Shown here piece by piece: positions 380 to 57,206 of a stretch of 58,969 bases of DNA (the stretch's first letter is position 1; each line of letters starts with the position of its first letter). Location: NCBI GenBank assembly GCA_017458225.1, contig JAFTFX010000034.1, positions 1-58,969 of the forward strand, in the 5' to 3' direction. The notes beneath the pieces are model-generated. The model searched no databases. It was not told the DNA's origin and worked only from the letters and a program-made list of their open reading frames with translations. Origin of the DNA: Prevotella sp. (lineage in GTDB: Bacteria > Bacteroidota > Bacteroidia > Bacteroidales > Bacteroidaceae). The position numbers and the translations under genes are program-made.

Positions 380-518
380 GTGCGTTGTCGGGCGAGGTGG
401 TTTTGGCTGTGAATCCGTAAAATGGGTAGATAAATCCAGACTCGCAGCCCAGAGACGACGGAGAAGATATTCAAGAGACTCAACTAAAACATGACTACAG
501 AGAATCCCACCCATCTTT

Positions 519-665
519 CGCTCTGACTAACGCCTGATTCCGCTCTGGTTAACGTCAAATTCCGCTCTATTTTGCGTCATATCTCGCTCTGATCAGACAT
601 TAACCAGAGCGGGATTTGACGTTAATTAGAGCGAGATATGATGCCAAACAGAGTGAAACTTGACG
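519..665. repeat. Head-to-head 22-nt tandem array
   Basis: Plus-oriented units begin CGCTCT at 519, 541, 563 and 585, exactly 22 nt apart. From 600 the sequence reads in the opposite orientation, with units at 600, 622 and 644 carrying AGAGYG followed by TTGACG or TATGATG. The two halves together form a large imperfect inverted repeat centred near 600. There is no open frame of interest. Confidence 0.8.
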
Positions 666-738
666 CTTGTTTCGAAACAACACGCGAAAGGGGCTTAATG
701 CATGTTTCGTGATAGTCCGAGTGACAGCAGTGACAGCA

Positions 739-868: not shown

Positions 869-1918
869 CTATTGTTTTTCACTATATTCCTTTGCAATGA
901 GTATCGAGCGATTGAGTTTGTCGATGAACCATTGTTTGTCAGGCAGACAGGTAAGATATTGTGCAACTTTGATGTGGTCCTCGTTCAGCATCATTAGTTC
1001 GATATGCTCAGTATTACCTTCACTACACAACAGAAGGCCGATAGGTGGATTCTCGTCCGGCTGCATATCGTATTTCTGCATATATTTGAGGTACAATTCC
1101 ATTTGCCCCTTATATTGAGGCTTGAATTTTCCAAGCTTAAGGTCGATGGCAACCAAACATTTCAGTTTACGATGATAGAACAGCAAATCCAGTTTGTAGT
1201 CAGTACCATCGATGGTAAAACGCTTTTGACGCTCCAAGAAAGCGAAGCCTTGTCCCAATTCCAGAATGAATGCTTCTAACTGTTTTGCAATAGCATCTTC
1301 CAGTTCTTCCTCGGAATAATAGCCACTCAAGCCCAAGAAGTCAAGTACATACGAATTGCGGAGTACAACATCTGGCTCCATGTGAGTAGGTGTCACCTTC
1401 TCAAGTGTTTTGACAATTTCGTCTTCAGGCTTAACAGCAATGAGAGAACGTTCATACAACATCTCATCCTGCTTATCCCGTAAATCTCTAACACTCCAAT
1501 GTTCTGCGATACCCATCTGCTGATAGAACAATCTTTTTGTTGCATCCTCAATAGTTACAAGCTCCAGAAAATGACTCCACGTCAATGTTTGCGACAGCGT
1601 CGCAAACGTTTCCTCGTCACTGTAATAGCGAGCCACCTTCATCATTCTTGTTACGGCAGAATACGTATAGCCTTTGCCATAGCGTGCTGTCAATCTTTGC
1701 GACAGTGTCGCAAGAATCTTGCTTCCATAGGCCGAGTACTGTTTATAGCCCATGTCCTCATTGATGTAGCGCCCTATGTGCCAGAACATCATATCAGAAT
1801 GTTTGTTCACATATACTACAACTTCTTGACGTGCATTGTCTATAATGTCTGTGACACCCTTATACAGACTTTCACTGACTTGCTCTATTACTTTTGTGTT
1901 TACAATTTCGTTTGCCAT
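869..1918 (-). CDS. YhcG/DUF1016 family PD-(D/E)XK nuclease-domain protein
   Basis: The 349-residue protein has a helical DUF1016 N-terminal region (with FWHIGRYINE near residue 50) and a C-terminal PD-(D/E)XK-type core. The core shows KLDLLFYHRKLKCLVAIDLK at about residues 242-261, giving D244, D259 and K261 as candidate active-site residues, then a GQMELYLKYM helix. Members are common in defence and mobile regions, and a role as a structure- or modification-dependent nuclease is predicted but unproven. The start is ATG at 1918 because the -7 box TAACTTTG (1934-1941) lies only 15 nt upstream, which excludes longer starts. It follows the EVE-HNH gene; its promoter overlaps that gene's stop codon, so it can be transcribed both with it and alone. 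Confidence 0.85.
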   Translation of the reverse strand: MANEIVNTKVIEQVSESLYKGVTDIIDNARQEVVVYVNKHSDMMFWHIGRYINEDMGYKQYSAYGSKILATLSQRLTARYGKGYTYSAVTRMMKVARYYSDEETFATLSQTLTWSHFLELVTIEDATKRLFYQQMGIAEHWSVRDLRDKQDEMLYERSLIAVKPEDEIVKTLEKVTPTHMEPDVVLRNSYVLDFLGLSGYYSEEELEDAIAKQLEAFILELGQGFAFLERQKRFTIDGTDYKLDLLFYHRKLKCLVAIDLKLGKFKPQYKGQMELYLKYMQKYDMQPDENPPIGLLLCSEGNTEHIELMMLNEDHIKVAQYLTCLPDKQWFIDKLNRSILIAKEYSEKQ

Positions 1919-1933
1919 ATATTGTTTCGTTTG

Positions 1934-1941
1934 CAAAGTTA
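1934..1941 (-). promoter_or_regulatory. Bacteroidota -7 box (TAACTTTG) for the YhcG-like gene
   Basis: TAACTTTG on the minus strand overlaps the stop codon of the upstream EVE-HNH gene and predicts a very short leader before ATG at 1918. Confidence 0.65.
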
Positions 1942-15744: not shown

Positions 15745-15768
15745 TCTTCTTTCTGTTTTCTATTTCTG

Positions 15769-15858
15769 CTAGTATCTCTAGTTCTGCTAGTTCCTCTAGT
15801 CTTACTAGTCTCTCTAGTTTTACTAGGACTACTAGTGCAATTAGTTTGTCTAGTTTTT
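15769..15858 (-). repeat. Ten-unit 9-nt CTAGTnnnn array between ilvD and ilvB
   Basis: Ten consecutive 9-mers start with CTAGT, CTAGG or TTAGT from 15769 to 15858. The next three bases (15859-15861) are the ilvD stop codon. The variable four bases differ in almost every unit. Confidence 0.85.
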
Positions 15859-17670
15859 CTATTCAATGATTCTCACGCCACCTTTATCGGCTGAACTAAC
15901 GCTCTGAGCGTAGGCACGCAGAGCCTTGCTGACCACGCGGTTGCGCTTTAGTGGCTGCTGTGGGCGCGCTGCCAGTTCCTCATCGCTGAGTTTTACGTTG
16001 ATGCTGCGCGAAGGAATGTCAATAACAATAATATCGCCGTCCTTAATCTTGCCTATATTGCCACCGTTGGCTGCCTCAGGCGAGATATGGCCGATAGAGA
16101 GGCCACTGGTGCCACCCGAGAATCGTCCGTCAGTGATGAGTGCACACTCCTTGCCCAGATGCATACTCTTTATATAAGAGGTGGGATAGAGCATTTCCTG
16201 CATGCCGGGGCCACCCTTCGGTCCCTCATGGGTGATGACCACGCAGTCGCCGCTCTTCACCTTGCCGCCCAAGATACCCTCGCAGGCATCTTCCTGCGAG
16301 TCGAACACCACGGCAGGTCCTTCGAAGTGCCACAGAGCCTCGTCGACACCAGCCGTCTTCACCACGCATCCGTCTTGTGCGATATTGCCGAAGAGCACAG
16401 CCAAGCCGCCATCCTTCGTATAGGCATGCTCCACATCGCGGATGCAGCCGTTGACGCGGTCGGTGTCGAGCGAAGGATAGAGTTCGCTCTGCGACCCCAT
16501 TTTCGTAGAGAAGCGGTTACCTGGGGCGGAATAGTAGATGCTAGTGGGACTAGTAGAGCTAGTAGAACTAGTGAGACTAGTAATATCGTACGCCTTCATT
16601 GCTTCGGCAAGCGTCATGCCGTCAACACGCGGAGCAGAACTATCCACCAAGCCAGCCTTGTTCAGCTCGTTGAGAATGCCCAAAATTCCACCGGCACGTC
16701 CACACTCCTGCACACTGTACTTTTGTGTGTTGGGAGCCAGCTTGCACAGGCAGGGAACCTTTCGGCTCAAAGCATCAATATCGCTCATTTTGAAATCAGC
16801 ACCAGCTTCCTGAGCGACTGCCAGCAGATGAAGCACGGTATTAGTAGAGCCACCCATTGCAATATCGAGTGTCATCGCGTTAAGGAAAGCCTTCCGTGTG
16901 GCGATGTTCCGAGGCAAGACGCTCTCATCGCCGTCCTCATAATAGGCAAAGGCGTTTTTCACCACTTGGCGTGCAGCCTTCTTGAACAACTCGATACGGT
17001 TGGTGTGTGTGGCAAGAATCGTTCCGTTGCCAGGCAGCGACAGACCGATAGCCTCGGTGAGCGAGTTCATGGAGTTTGCCGTGAACATGCCGCTACACGA
17101 ACCGCATCCAGGACAGGCGCACGATTCCAGTTCTTTCATATCCTCGTCGCTCACCGACGGGTCGGCACCTTTCACCATCGCCGTAATCAGATCGGCATTC
17201 TCGCCGCGCCAGCGACCTGCCTCCATCGGGCCACCGCTGACGAACACCGTAGGGATGTTCAGTCGCATCGAAGCCATCAGCATGCCTGGAGTCACCTTGT
17301 CGCAATTCGAGATGCAAATCATCGCATCGGCCTTGTGGGCGTTAACCATATATTCTACAGAGTCGGCGATGATATCTCGTGAAGGCAGCGAATAGAGCAT
17401 ACCGTCGTGTCCCATAGCAATGCCGTCATCAATAGCAATCGTGTTGAACTCAGCGGCATAGCAGCCCATCTTCTCAATCTCTTCACGCACAATCTGTCCA
17501 ATCTCATGCAAATGAGTATGACCGGGCACAAACTGTGTGAACGAGTTGACAATGGCAATAATGGGCTTGCCAAACTGTTCGTGCTTCATGCCGGTAGCTA
17601 CCCAAAGGGCTCTGGCTCCGGCCATTCGTCTGCCTTCAGTACAGACGCTGCTTCTTAATTGGTGTTTCAT
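15859..17670 (-). CDS. ilvD: Dihydroxy-acid dehydratase
   Basis: IlvD is an iron-sulphur enzyme that dehydrates dihydroxy acids to 2-oxo acids in branched-chain amino-acid synthesis. The 603-residue protein shows [15 protein letters not shown] (cluster cysteine), [35 protein letters not shown] and [22 protein letters not shown]. At about residues 362-377 it contains [15 protein letters not shown], encoded by five 9-nt CTAGT units (16541-16585) like those in the spacer downstream. The insertion keeps the frame and lies between conserved blocks, so the enzyme may still work. The start is 3 nt after the rmuC stop. Confidence 0.95.
16541..16585 (-). repeat. In-frame 9-nt CTAGT array inside ilvD
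   Basis: Five 9-mers beginning CTAGT start at 16541, 16550, 16559, 16568 and 16577. On the coding strand each encodes a Thr-Ser-X tripeptide. Confidence 0.85.
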
Positions 17671-22994: not shown

Positions 22995-23007
22995 CTTGCC
23001 TATTGTC

Positions 23008-23063
23008 TGAACTCCAGTAACTTCTGAACTCCTGAACTCCTGTAGTCCTGTAGTCATCAGTCC
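23008..23063 (-). repeat. 8-nt tandem array at the 3' end of ilvC
   Basis: Seven 8-mers of the type CTGAACTC or CTGTAGTC run from 23008, and the array enters the ilvC stop codon at 23057-23059. Confidence 0.65.
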
Positions 23064-29231: not shown

Positions 29232-29519
29232 ATGAAGGCTCTGGTTGACAAGGTGGAAATGATAGTGAAGGCCAACCATGCACCTATGCTATCAGGAGAT
29301 ATTATCTCTAAGAATTTGACTAAGGCAGATGAGATGATGACAAAAGGCGTACCCTTAATGAAGTTCAGGTTAATCATATATCTTAGAACAAACATAGGCT
29401 ATGGAAATATCTGGATTGCTATTAAATACGACTACAGATATCTATCTGTTTTTCAGGATTTTACTTCTCCCAAAAATTCTTTTTCGTTTGGGAGAAAAAC
29501 TCCGAGCGTCACGGAGTAA
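29232..29519 (+). CDS. Doubtful 95-codon hypothetical ORF
   Basis: The first 45 or so residues (MKALVDKVEMIVKANHA, then KADEMMTKGV) look protein-like, but the C-terminal third is encoded by the repeat hairpin and the first 22-nt unit. No -7 box was found in front of it. It may be the 5' fragment of a lost gene; I do not recognise a family. Confidence 0.25.
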   Translation: MKALVDKVEMIVKANHAPMLSGDIISKNLTKADEMMTKGVPLMKFRLIIYLRTNIGYGNIWIAIKYDYRYLSVFQDFTSPKNSFSFGRKTPSVTE

Positions 29520-29651
29520 TTCTCCGAAAGTCTTGTAGTGTTACTCCGGATGTCGCGAAGCGTTACTCCGGATGTCGCGAAGCGTTACTCCGGAAGGCGC
29601 GGAGCATTACTCCAAGAGAGGGGGAGTACTACTCCGAAACGCCTATCTCAG
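29465..29651 (+). repeat. Composite repeat copy 1: hairpin plus 22-nt array
   Basis: TTCTCCCAAA (29465-29474) and TTTGGGAGAA (29487-29496) form a 10-bp hairpin. After AAA, units beginning CTCC start at 29500, 29522, 29544, 29566, 29588, 29610 and 29632, all exactly 22 nt apart. The general form is CTCCG-N7-CGGAG-N5, with A/T-rich N5. Units 3 and 4 are identical. The same design recurs at 57040-57206. Confidence 0.92.
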
Positions 29652-29718
29652 AATGTCAGCACACTTCCTCCAGACGTTTCATCACAGAGGACATGCTTAG
29701 CCACACCTACTCACAACA

Positions 29719-45601: not shown

Positions 45602-45711
45602 GAGAAAGCGTCAAACGGCTCCAAGAGTTTGATGCAAACGCTACGAGAGTTGATGCAAACGCCCCAAGGGTTTAATGCAAATACTCCAAGAGAAAACGTC
45701 ACCTCCTACAA
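45602..45711 (+). repeat. 22-nt tandem array between radA and the TonB receptor
   Basis: Five units of 23, 22, 21, 22 and 22 nt run from the base after the radA stop codon. Most begin with GAG and centre on a dyad of the type TTTGATGCAAA. No -7 box is seen between here and 45744, so the receptor may be read through the array from radA. Confidence 0.75.
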
Positions 45712-50284: not shown

Positions 50285-50291
50285 TAGCCGA

Positions 50292-50347
50292 AATATCGAG
50301 ATATTGAAACATTGAAATATCGAGATATCGAAATAACGAAATATCGA
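50292..50347 (+). repeat. 8-nt tandem array between mmdA and the small subunit gene
   Basis: Seven consecutive 8-mers of the type RATATCGA fill the spacer from 50292 to 50347, just before the ATG at 50354. Confidence 0.8.
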
Positions 50348-50353
50348 AAAAAT

Positions 50354-50949: not shown

Positions 50950-52255
50950 CCACTTGAACAGAGCCTCTAAACATTTCGACCTTGAACAGAACCTCTATAT
51001 TGAGGGCGACAATCTTGAGGCGTTAAAACTGCTTCGGCAGGATTATCGCGACAAGGTCAAGCTCATCTATATTGATCCGCCCTACAACACCGGCCATCAA
51101 TTTGTCTATTCCGACAAATTCACGAGTCAGCAATGGGGTTCTATGATGCTCCATCGTCTCGAAGCAGCGCGAGAACTGCTGAGCGACGATGGAGCCATCT
51201 TCATTTCCATCGACCAGCACGAAATGATCCGTCTCGTCGGCATCTGCGACGAAGTGTTCGGAAGCGTCAACCGTGTGGCCATCATCTCAGTTATTAACAA
51301 TCTGAAAGGCCGCTCCGACAATGCTTTCTTTGCCACCTGCCACGAGTTTCTACTCGTCTACGCAAAAGCTGTTGACAAGCTGTCAATCACAGGATTCCCG
51401 TTGAGCGACGATGAAGTCAACGACGAATACGACCAGCAAGACGAAATAGGCCGTTACAAACTGATAGGATTCAGGAAGACCGGCAGAGCGTGGAAGCGCG
51501 AAGAGCGTCCCAACATGTTCTACCCTGTACTGTTCAAGAATCAACAGTTCAGCACTCTCCCACCCCACGAGCTGGTTCAACTCTACGACGAGCAGCGCGG
51601 CACGTTCAACGATGCCTATTTGCTGGCCCTCACGGAACGCTGCCAACGACAAGGATTTCAGGTCATTTGGCCAAAGAACGAGCAAGGAGTCTATGGCAGA
51701 TGGCGCTGGGGCATTGAGACTTTCCTTGCCCAAAAGGACAGTCATTTGGCCCTGAATGCCGCAGGAACGCTGTGCACCAAGATGCGAGCCACACTGGAAA
51801 ACGGGCAGTTGCGGATGAAAGCCGCAAAGACCGTGTGGTATAAGCCCGACTATGACACGGGCAGTGCCGCCCGACAACTGGCAACGCTGATGGGACGGGC
51901 CGACCTGTTTGAGAATCCGAAATCGCTCACGTTCATCGCCGATATCATAAAGATTGCCACTCGCAAAGACAGCATCGTACTCGACTTCTTCTCCGGTTCG
52001 TCGACGACAGCCCACGCGGTGATGCAGCAGAATGCCGAAGATGGCGGATGTCGCAAATTCATCATGGTGCAACGCCCAGACCCTACAGCCACAGGGAGTG
52101 CTGCCCGTCAGGCAGGCTATCACACCATCTGCGAGATTGGCGAAGAACGTATTCGTCGAAGCGGTCAGCTAATTCTGGCCAAACAGAAAGAACGAGGTGA
52201 CACTCAGCTTATCAACACCGTCTTTCGCATTGAGAAACTTCCACAATCGCATTGA
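50942..52255 (+). pseudogene. Type III restriction-modification DNA methyltransferase (Mod), truncated at both ends
   Basis: The frame encodes the core of a beta-class N6-adenine methylase: LYIEGDNLEALKLLRQDY, the catalytic IYIDPPYNTG, LLSDDGAIFISIDQHE and the SAM-binding VLDFFSGSSTTAHAVM near the C-terminus. Type III Mod proteins usually have about 600 residues with about 90 before IEGDN; here only about 18 precede it, without an ATG (first candidates are TTG at 50942 or 50954, overlapping or abutting mmdC). At the other end the protein stops at VFRIEKLPQSH, where relatives continue. The last codons lie inside a 22-nt array. No res gene is nearby. It is most likely a remnant, though a short functional methylase cannot be excluded. 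Confidence 0.65.
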
Positions 52256-52335
52256 GAAACTTTTACAATCACACTGAAATACTAACAGGATTGCAATGAA
52301 ATTCTGACAGAATTGCAGTGAGATTCCTAAACGAA
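52226..52335 (+). repeat. 22-nt tandem array at the end of the Mod fragment
   Basis: Five exact 22-nt steps start at 52226, 52248, 52270, 52292 and 52314. Units 1 and 2 begin CGCATTGAGAAACTT and differ at two positions; later units diverge but keep the TGA(g/a)A and ACA(g/a) core. The Mod reading frame ends at 52255 inside unit 2. Confidence 0.85.
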
Positions 52336-52350
52336 CAGACAGGAACACAA

Positions 52351-57039: not shown

Positions 57040-57206
57040 TTCTCCCAAAAATTTATTTTTGTTTGGGAGAAAAACTCCGGACGTCCCGGAGTAATTCTCC
57101 GAAAGGCATGGAGTAATTCTCCGAATATCCCGGAGTGTTACTCCAAGCGTCTTGGAGTGATTCTCCGAAAGTTCCGGAGCATTACTCCGAATGACTTGGA
57201 CATATT
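57040..57206 (+). repeat. Composite repeat copy 2: hairpin plus 22-nt array
   Basis: TTCTCCCAAA (57040-57049) and TTTGGGAGAA (57062-57071) form the same 10-bp hairpin as copy 1. After 3 nt (AAA), units start at 57075, 57097, 57119, 57141, 57163 and 57185, exactly 22 nt apart. Arms co-vary: CTCCGG/CCGGAG in unit 1 and CTCCAAG/CTTGGAG in unit 4. Confidence 0.92.

Follow-up and report, generated by a model that had tools for sequence, protein, structure and literature searches.

What is the composite element, a hairpin followed by a strictly phased array of palindromic 22-nt units, that occurs twice in the Prevotella sp. DNA stretch analyzed here (58,969 nt, hereafter referred to as the window), and what could such an array serve for? 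The first-pass annotation had described a 10-bp hairpin followed after 3 nt by seven CTCC-starting units at 22 nt, all of which were read directly in copy 1, and a second copy 27.6 kb away with identical hairpin arms, equal spacer and period, and other unit interiors, which was borne out at a distance of 27,575 nt. The two copies are composed of the following features:

29436..29464, plus strand: copy 1, upstream part of approximately 28 nt with a CTGT..ACAG-like core, mostly GTTAC at its end
29465..29496, plus strand: copy 1, head hairpin with 10-bp arms and a 12-nt variable loop
29465-29474 and 29487-29496, plus strand: copy 1, hairpin arms TTCTCCCAAA and TTTGGGAGAA, read directly
29497..29499, plus strand: copy 1, spacer AAA, read directly
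29500..29653, plus strand: copy 1, array of seven 22-nt steps, dyad arms at -8..-5 and +5..+8
29465-29653, plus strand: copy 1, whole element (hairpin, 3 nt, dyad units)
57040..57071, plus strand: copy 2, head hairpin, arms identical to those of copy 1, loop different
57072..57074, plus strand: copy 2, spacer AAA, read directly
57075..57206, plus strand: copy 2, array of six 22-nt steps, right arm of the last step decayed
57040-57206, plus strand: copy 2, whole element, 27,575 nt from copy 1

The seven CTCC starts of copy 1 are located at 29500, 29522, 29544, 29566, 29588, 29610, and 29632, i.e., in an exact 22-nt step, and its array represents six complete units plus a left half, the right arm of unit 7 being gone. 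Of the unit form CTCCG-N7-CGGAG-N5 proposed previously, the 22-nt step held, and the strict CTCCG-N7-CGGAG sequence was confined to two of the seven units (1 and 5). Copy 2 features six CTCC starts from 57075 with unit interiors unlike those of copy 1. Furthermore, the GGAG of the right hairpin arm of copy 1 (29491-29494) lies exactly 22 nt upstream of the GGAG of unit 1, placing the hairpin in phase with the array.

As had been suggested, the genome and its relatives were searched with the hairpin and the CTCCG period-22 pattern. Within the window's own genome (G000, an assembly of 75% completeness), the hairpin-plus-CTCC pattern matched ten times and its reversed control not at all. A covariance model built from these ten matches, which ten of its copies hence match by construction, detected 11 full-length copies with E-values of 2.1e-37 or better. 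The unit pattern yielded 94 matches, of which 93 belong to the 11 sites and a single one is isolated; its reversed control gave none. Since both patterns are abundant in G000 and both reversed controls empty, the copies are not a product of chance. The sites are spread over eight contigs; ten copies were read, the eleventh (C35:104451) being known from the covariance model and unit pattern matches. The annotation's view of a defined element, as opposed to random low complexity or a chance local duplication of fixed length, was thus supported by eleven genomic copies and by variable unit numbers in the ten copies read (6, 8, 6, 6, 6, 6, 7, 9, 7, and 5, i.e., 66 in total, counted by 22-nt steps with any slip ending the count). 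One copy, at locus L011, has a 1-nt slip ahead of its last unit and was also found to carry a 19-nt direct repeat on both flanks, within a terminator-like palindrome.

Alignment of the ten copies revealed that the upstream part is loosely common to most of them and absent from the L011 copy, and that the spacer between hairpin and array is AAA in nine copies and TTA in one. The hairpin arms are invariant, partly because they were fixed by the search pattern. Within the arrays, as judged from the copies read and aligned, the first unit is best conserved and later units decay. Over the 66 units, the family is characterized by period 22 and by dyad arms on either side of a fixed centre, the best-kept positions being -8..-5 (0.97-1.00) and +5, +7, and +8 (0.97-0.98). 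Position +6 is occupied by G in 59% and T in 33% of the units, and its partner, -6, by C in 97%.

Regarding the distribution of the sequence, the hairpin pattern was found in one out of 150 genus genomes, namely G000 itself, and had no match in the genome_contigs and viral_contigs collections. The more permissive pattern CTCCG-N7-CGGAG-N5-CTCCG was detected in 7 out of 398 genomes (G000 with 18 matches, G183 with 10, G350 with 5, G352 and G071 with 2 each, and G080 and G117 with 1 each). The single matches in G080 and G117 may be due to chance, as the reversed pattern likewise gave one match each in two other genomes of the 398.

To place the element in a wider context, period-22 repeats of any sequence were considered. 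Tandem Repeats Finder (TRF) revealed a sharp peak at 22 nt in the intergenic DNA of the sampled stretches, with 25 rows in G000 and 31 in G028, where overlapping rows may describe one array. A lag scan, representing a lag count over 44-nt windows, was applied to 11 same-genus and four outgroup samples, with L148 (G046, 11 kb) and L113 (G164, 1.3 kb) left out. Intergenic lag-22 counts were 18 for G000, 22 for G028, 7 for G026, 4 for G027 (partly multiples of an 11-nt repeat), 3 for G003, 3 for G010 (one from a run matching at every lag), 2 for G016, and 1 each for G024 and G044. Accordingly, 9 out of 11 same-genus samples (all except G009 and G045, 20 kb each) contained period-22 arrays between genes, their units being unrelated, and in eight samples no intergenic lag was more frequent than 22. 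Other lags were also observed, namely 8 and its multiples in G028, 7 in G009, and 11 in G027. No lag-22 count was obtained for the four outgroup samples (approximately 300 kb in total), G173 having other lags and G157, G170, and G151 no intergenic row. The sequence of the window element is rare elsewhere, and its build is common in Prevotella-type bacteria.

Three further arrays of this period, with units unrelated to the CTCCG element, are present in the window itself:

510..680, no strand assigned: units CGCTCTGATTAACGTCAAATTC, then inverted copies (read by eye); 3' of a DUF1016/YhcG nuclease gene (869-1936, minus strand)
45612..45692, no strand assigned: units CAAACGCTCCAAGAGTTTGATG with small indels (TRF, 5% indels; outside the indel-free catalogue)
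52207..52337, no strand assigned: units TCGCATTGAGAAACTTCCACAA and TGAAATTCTAACAGAATTGCAA (TRF and catalogue)

Repeats of other periods were noticed as well: period-9 CTAGT repeats at 15759-15861 and 16528-16582, one of them intergenic and one in a long ORF, and period-8 repeats at 50289-50349 and 23007-23050 (CGAAATAT and CTGAACTC), lag 8 being frequent in G028, too.

The resulting catalogue comprises 62 arrays, two of which are really the short-period repeat of G027, and the unit sequence varies by family. Some arrays standing alone are embedded in larger elements with inverted wings that are also approximately 22-periodic. In G028, loci L075, L084, L089, and others contain about four AACAAAGTTAATAACATTGTT units between the inverted wings GATATCAAACGGGG and CCCCATTTGTATC, these wings being seemingly 22-periodic. 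The orientation of the genes neighboring the arrays (++ 20, +- 15, -- 14, -+ 9) differs weakly from that at background gaps (156, 85, 151, and 123, respectively), and the excess of convergent pairs is at most weak.

Candidate partner genes were sought by clustering the neighbors of the arrays across genomes. A small cysteine-rich protein recurred beside arrays of G026 (two members) and G027 (one member), corresponding to PF19555 (DUF6078). With three members, and six in a wider repeat of the clustering that admitted smaller ORFs (the six including G003/G026 orthologues), this was the largest family to be met next to arrays in more than one genome. Other families in more than one genome were ABC ATPases (4) and acetyltransferases (3), and pairs were formed by transketolase-, VapE-, and TonB-receptor-like proteins; these names, VapE excepted, represent a reading of the sequences. 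One further three-member cluster was confined to G000. The families other than DUF6078 look like common gene types or orthologue pairs. DUF1016 and VapE-like genes, which occur by some arrays, were considered as general partners and judged not to be general. BT4734/VapE-like genes were seen directly after the arrays of L151, L154, L157, L293, and L053, as deduced from profile matches (L157, as L138:4106-5941, and L053), the record annotation (L293), or reading by eye (L151 and L154).

A profile search identified 20 DUF6078 genes in 12 genomes, with a period-22 array beside 13 of the 20 according to the detector and, by eye, beside 15 of the 18 unbroken genes, always on the 3' side; no array was seen beside the unbroken genes L160, L165, and L168. 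The arrays of G010 and G016 occur in genomes in which DUF6078 was not detected. The linkage was evaluated on 69 DUF6078 loci (five of them already among the 20) from species genomes of Prevotella, Bacteroides, Parabacteroides, Segatella, Xylanibacter, Alloprevotella, and others, the array score being the best lag of 15-30, with a cut-off of at least 0.70, within 400 nt downstream of the stop codon, as compared to a 400-nt stretch on the 5' side. This cut-off was reached by 40 of the 69 loci on the 3' side (lag 22 in 35, 23 in 3, and 21 in 2) vs. three on the 5' side, and the best lag was 22 in 55 loci 3' and in five loci 5'. The genes often have their array within approximately 150 nt of the stop codon; at L253 and L254 it lies 5' of the gene.

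Ten further members matched in plasmid and phage collections, and the nine that were read (24-36% identity to the query) all had 22 as best 3' lag, with scores of 0.68-0.80; those from phage records lie on scaffolds that are unverified, and the three records listed as Bacteroidales plasmids resemble pieces of a chromosome. No DUF6078 match was obtained in viral_contigs. One of these members, L294 on the Treponema saccharophilum plasmid pTS1, represents DUF6078 with a 3' array outside Bacteroidota, which suggests that gene and array were transferred together.

DUF6078 contains four invariant or nearly invariant cysteines, on account of which it is read as a predicted zinc protein, and the motif G.xTYYR..G...LTPEQQ..I...F..YGY in its C-terminal half. 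In the AlphaFold2 model (pLDDT 94.3), helices span residues 82-96, 99-106, and 114-126; the helix-turn-helix (HTH) fragment modelled alone was poorer (pLDDT 82.9) and lost the middle helix. Foldseek searches gave no match at E <= 0.001, either in the PDB, where the best weak rows were 4yba (E 0.37) and TP901-1 CI (E 3.1) and HTH proteins were mixed with unrelated folds, or among viral models. The best three viral rows covered 52-63 columns with probabilities of 0.98-1.00 and E-values of 5.4e-3 to 5.8e-2; the best viral rows represent short phage proteins, the first of them unnamed or uncharacterized and some lower ones named HTH. By sequence, the PDB returned two unrelated molecules (E 0.55 and 0.78), and NCBIfam (two proteins) as well as PHROGs and PADLOC (three proteins each) had no match up to E 1. 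Based on the motif, the three helices, and the weak structural matches, DUF6078 is read as a predicted HTH protein. We infer that it binds DNA, and does so as a dimer.

Whether protein and array vary together was examined on units derived for 57 of the 69 loci (best lag 21-23, score of 0.60 or more), some arrays stepping by 21 or 23 nt. The mean dyad score of these units was 0.51, as compared to 0.40 (sd 0.04) for shuffled columns. The DUF6078 alignment covered 67 of the 69 loci, with L258 (a fragment) and L198 (an oversight) left out, and 44 of the 57 loci were kept for covariation (those in the alignment with a lag of exactly 22 and a score of at least 0.65); the 13 loci left out include rows with Arg104 whose half-site is not clearly CA (L209 and L237; L238 is of low complexity) and a Glu104 row with no CA (L245). 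For 13 of the 44 half-sites, the register was moved to the other dyad by a rule set after the units had been viewed; the CA/TG count described below is independent of this step, and the scan and the footprint average depend on it in part. Averaged over the 44 arrays, positions -8..-3 and +3..+8 are kept (0.72-0.85) vs. 0.56-0.64 for loop and spacer.

Residue 104 of the predicted HTH helix, which was picked by eye ahead of the scan, is Arg in 38 loci, all 38 of which have arrays with the half-site NNNNCA/TGNNNN, and Leu, Cys, Lys, or Trp in six, none of which has a CA/TG half-site (Fisher 1.4e-7 overall). In the covariation scan of residues 10-140 against the six half-site bases, using 40 representatives of the 44 (under 80% identity), residue 104 and base 5 ranked first (z 12.1, 0 of 300 permutations). 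Other high pairs were residue 99 with base 1 and residues 100 and 101 with base 4. High rows also occurred outside the recognition segment (130 with base 5 and 76 with base 6) and at near-invariant columns (97, 70, and 138 with base 2). When the tree was inferred with the recognition segment removed, each trait changed five times, and the two agreed in all 53 rows. Nine of these rows were added with hand-labelled half-sites (L158 and L159 having unlike left and right arms, neither of them CA), and L165, which lacks an array, and L167, which lacks the YY motif, were left out. Two independent contrasts fall on well supported branches, a number with which a sign test is unable to reach significance, and the covariation is phylogenetically not decisive. 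In view of the 3' linkage and the covariation of residue 104 with the half-site, DUF6078 most likely reads the arrays to which it is linked.

Arrays of DUF6078-linked types were also found away from the gene, three such types having been matched by pattern count, by pattern and reading, and by eye, respectively. The TATAC type, located beside one DUF6078 gene each of G026 and G003, matched 121 and 41 times in these genomes and not at all in 16 others, in ten of which DUF6078 was sought (reversed control: 0); as G026 and G003 are close relatives, this result counts as one contrast. The TTACC type of G000 occupies two sites, one behind DUF6078 and one solo at C8:12055, and the GTATCA type, beside another DUF6078 gene of G026, recurs twice on contig 1.

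How does the CTCCGA family of the window compare with this class? Its footprint is narrower (-8..-5 and +5..+8, as compared to -8..-3 and +3..+8), with weaker positions -4, -3, +3, and +4 (0.38-0.86) and a stronger centre (0 and +2, 0.86). Its half-site is CTCCGA, and the hairpin arm reads CTCCCA, as do arrays of L199, L204, and L220. No DUF6078 gene lies beside any of the 11 copies. The one DUF6078 gene found in G000 with PF19555 and HTH profiles is located at C9:118612, whereas the only window-family copy on this contig is at 19.4 kb; the gene encodes Arg104 and lies next to a TTACCA array; the CTCCGA half-site is not of its CA type. Likewise, none was present in the fetched stretches of 30 CTCCG-array loci (30 of the 39 matches, ten of them from G000). 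As the sole gene found in G000 lies beside a TTACCA array and none was seen at the CTCCG loci fetched, the CTCCGA family is connected to DUF6078 by architecture only. By analogy, we infer that it is read by a DUF6078-type protein, whose gene may be missing from the 75%-complete assembly, lost, or diverged, and the best reading of the window element is that of a solo docking array for such a dimer.

The dispersed element probably serves as a docking array for a dimeric protein that binds DNA, and would belong to a class best defined by DUF6078. One 22-bp unit would represent one dyad site for one dimer, and, given the fixed 22-bp phase of two turns, the dimers would sit every two turns on one helix face, stacked as a regular nucleoprotein array. 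An array beside a DUF6078 gene could act as a sink for its own protein or as a feedback site, and solo arrays as secondary docking sites condensing or insulating intergenic DNA; any effect or purpose of binding at the arrays is proposed here from their arrangement. A protein array on one helical face had been one of two suggestions of the first-pass annotation and has gained indirect but specific evidence from the DUF6078-linked arrays and the residue-base covariation; the other, a string of RNA hairpins, proved to be the weaker one.

An unlikely alternative is a selfish repeat of the REP, BOX, or MITE kind, spread by a transposase and devoid of a binding function, its regular units being a by-product of slippage. 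The scattering of eleven copies with five to nine units each, in a genus where the sequence is otherwise rare, would fit such an origin, as would the 19-nt direct repeat around the L011 copy and the different arrays held by equivalent intergenic gaps of the related species G003 and G026 (three gaps read). However, a direct repeat as expected for a target-site duplication was present in only one of ten copies, and decay is uneven, with arms at 0.97 or more (except +6) and other unit positions down to 0.38; moreover, the DUF6078 linkage and the covariation would be left unexplained. A Y1 transposase was tried as partner and rejected: within the 1.7-2.7 kb read at each of three PF01797 loci from six genomes (in G000, G028, and G014), no array of period 22 was present. 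As a separate observation, a 12-nt repeat at L050:1917-1960, CATGTTTCGTGA, closely follows the Y1-transposase-like gene of G028, the sole one detected there.

In genomic habit, the nearest known system is REP/RAYT (REP-associated tyrosine transposase): in PMC3733652, REP elements are described as small palindromic, mainly intergenic repeats, some families being species-specific, that occur beside a dedicated gene as well as solo. Bacteroidetes Y1 genes, in turn, are flanked by atypical structures, according to PMC6006769. Of the GTAG or CGTC tag that, as defined in PMC3733652, marks one end of a single REP hairpin, GTAG occurs in about one third of the right arms of the window family and CGTC within many units, here as parts of the dyad unit and not as an unpaired tag. 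Unlike REP/RAYT, the arrays described here are arranged head-to-tail in 22-bp phase, and the linked gene is DUF6078 and not a Y1 transposase. The window element also shares its head and variable unit number with another known design. BOX elements of Streptococcus pneumoniae are composite, with an unlike head and a variable number of internal units. They differ from our arrays, which have dyad units in 22-bp phase and many unrelated unit sequences per genome and genus. Iteron and partition-site arrays, e.g., 22-bp plasmid iterons, offer proteins binding sites at regular intervals of about two helical turns; this spacing is shared, whereas the window family is distributed over eleven sites on eight contigs. 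Similar to CRISPR, a head-like region precedes the repeats and the first unit is best kept, but there are no spacers, the units of the window family being contiguous and homologous along 22 nt.

That the array docks a protein of another family, its likeness to DUF6078-linked arrays being convergence on 22-bp phasing, is improbable: no DUF6078 partner was found for the CTCCGA family, arrays also occur in genomes without detected DUF6078, and the window-family footprint differs at its centre, yet the other recurring neighbors looked like common gene types or orthologue pairs and no second candidate partner emerged. Just as improbable is an RNA element, i.e., a transcript forming a string of small hairpins that stabilizes, terminates, or regulates RNA; the arrays are intergenic, those of DUF6078 lie just 3' of the gene, and single units are able to pair, but the stem is interrupted at +6, opposite a conserved C at -6, in about one third of the units of the window family, and no Rfam family reached its gathering score in the window, which weakens this alternative; both-sided changes affect one of 22 predicted pairs in the alignment of ten copies, and the covariation between half-site and predicted HTH residues is indicative of double-stranded DNA.

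Returning to the docking array for a DUF6078-type dimer, no papers naming DUF6078 and none describing such period-22 arrays were found in the open-access full-text literature searched. The ingredients, dyad arrays and HTH proteins, are known; their combination is regarded here as new. In its widest form, to which we give about an even chance, DUF6078 and its arrays would constitute undescribed orthogonal docking systems, with a cis array for each paralogue, a code switched via few residues (104 above all), seeding of solo arrays, and transfer of gene plus array to the Treponema plasmid. In that case, the window element would belong to one of these systems as its solo array and might organize or insulate the chromosome.

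The proposed reading offers a testable role for an uncharacterized family of Prevotella, Bacteroides, Parabacteroides, and relatives, and would account for part of the large class of intergenic repeats in these bacteria. Furthermore, the residue-base covariation would represent a readable recognition code with many natural variants, which may be used to study changes in DNA-binding specificity and the formation of protein arrays on DNA.
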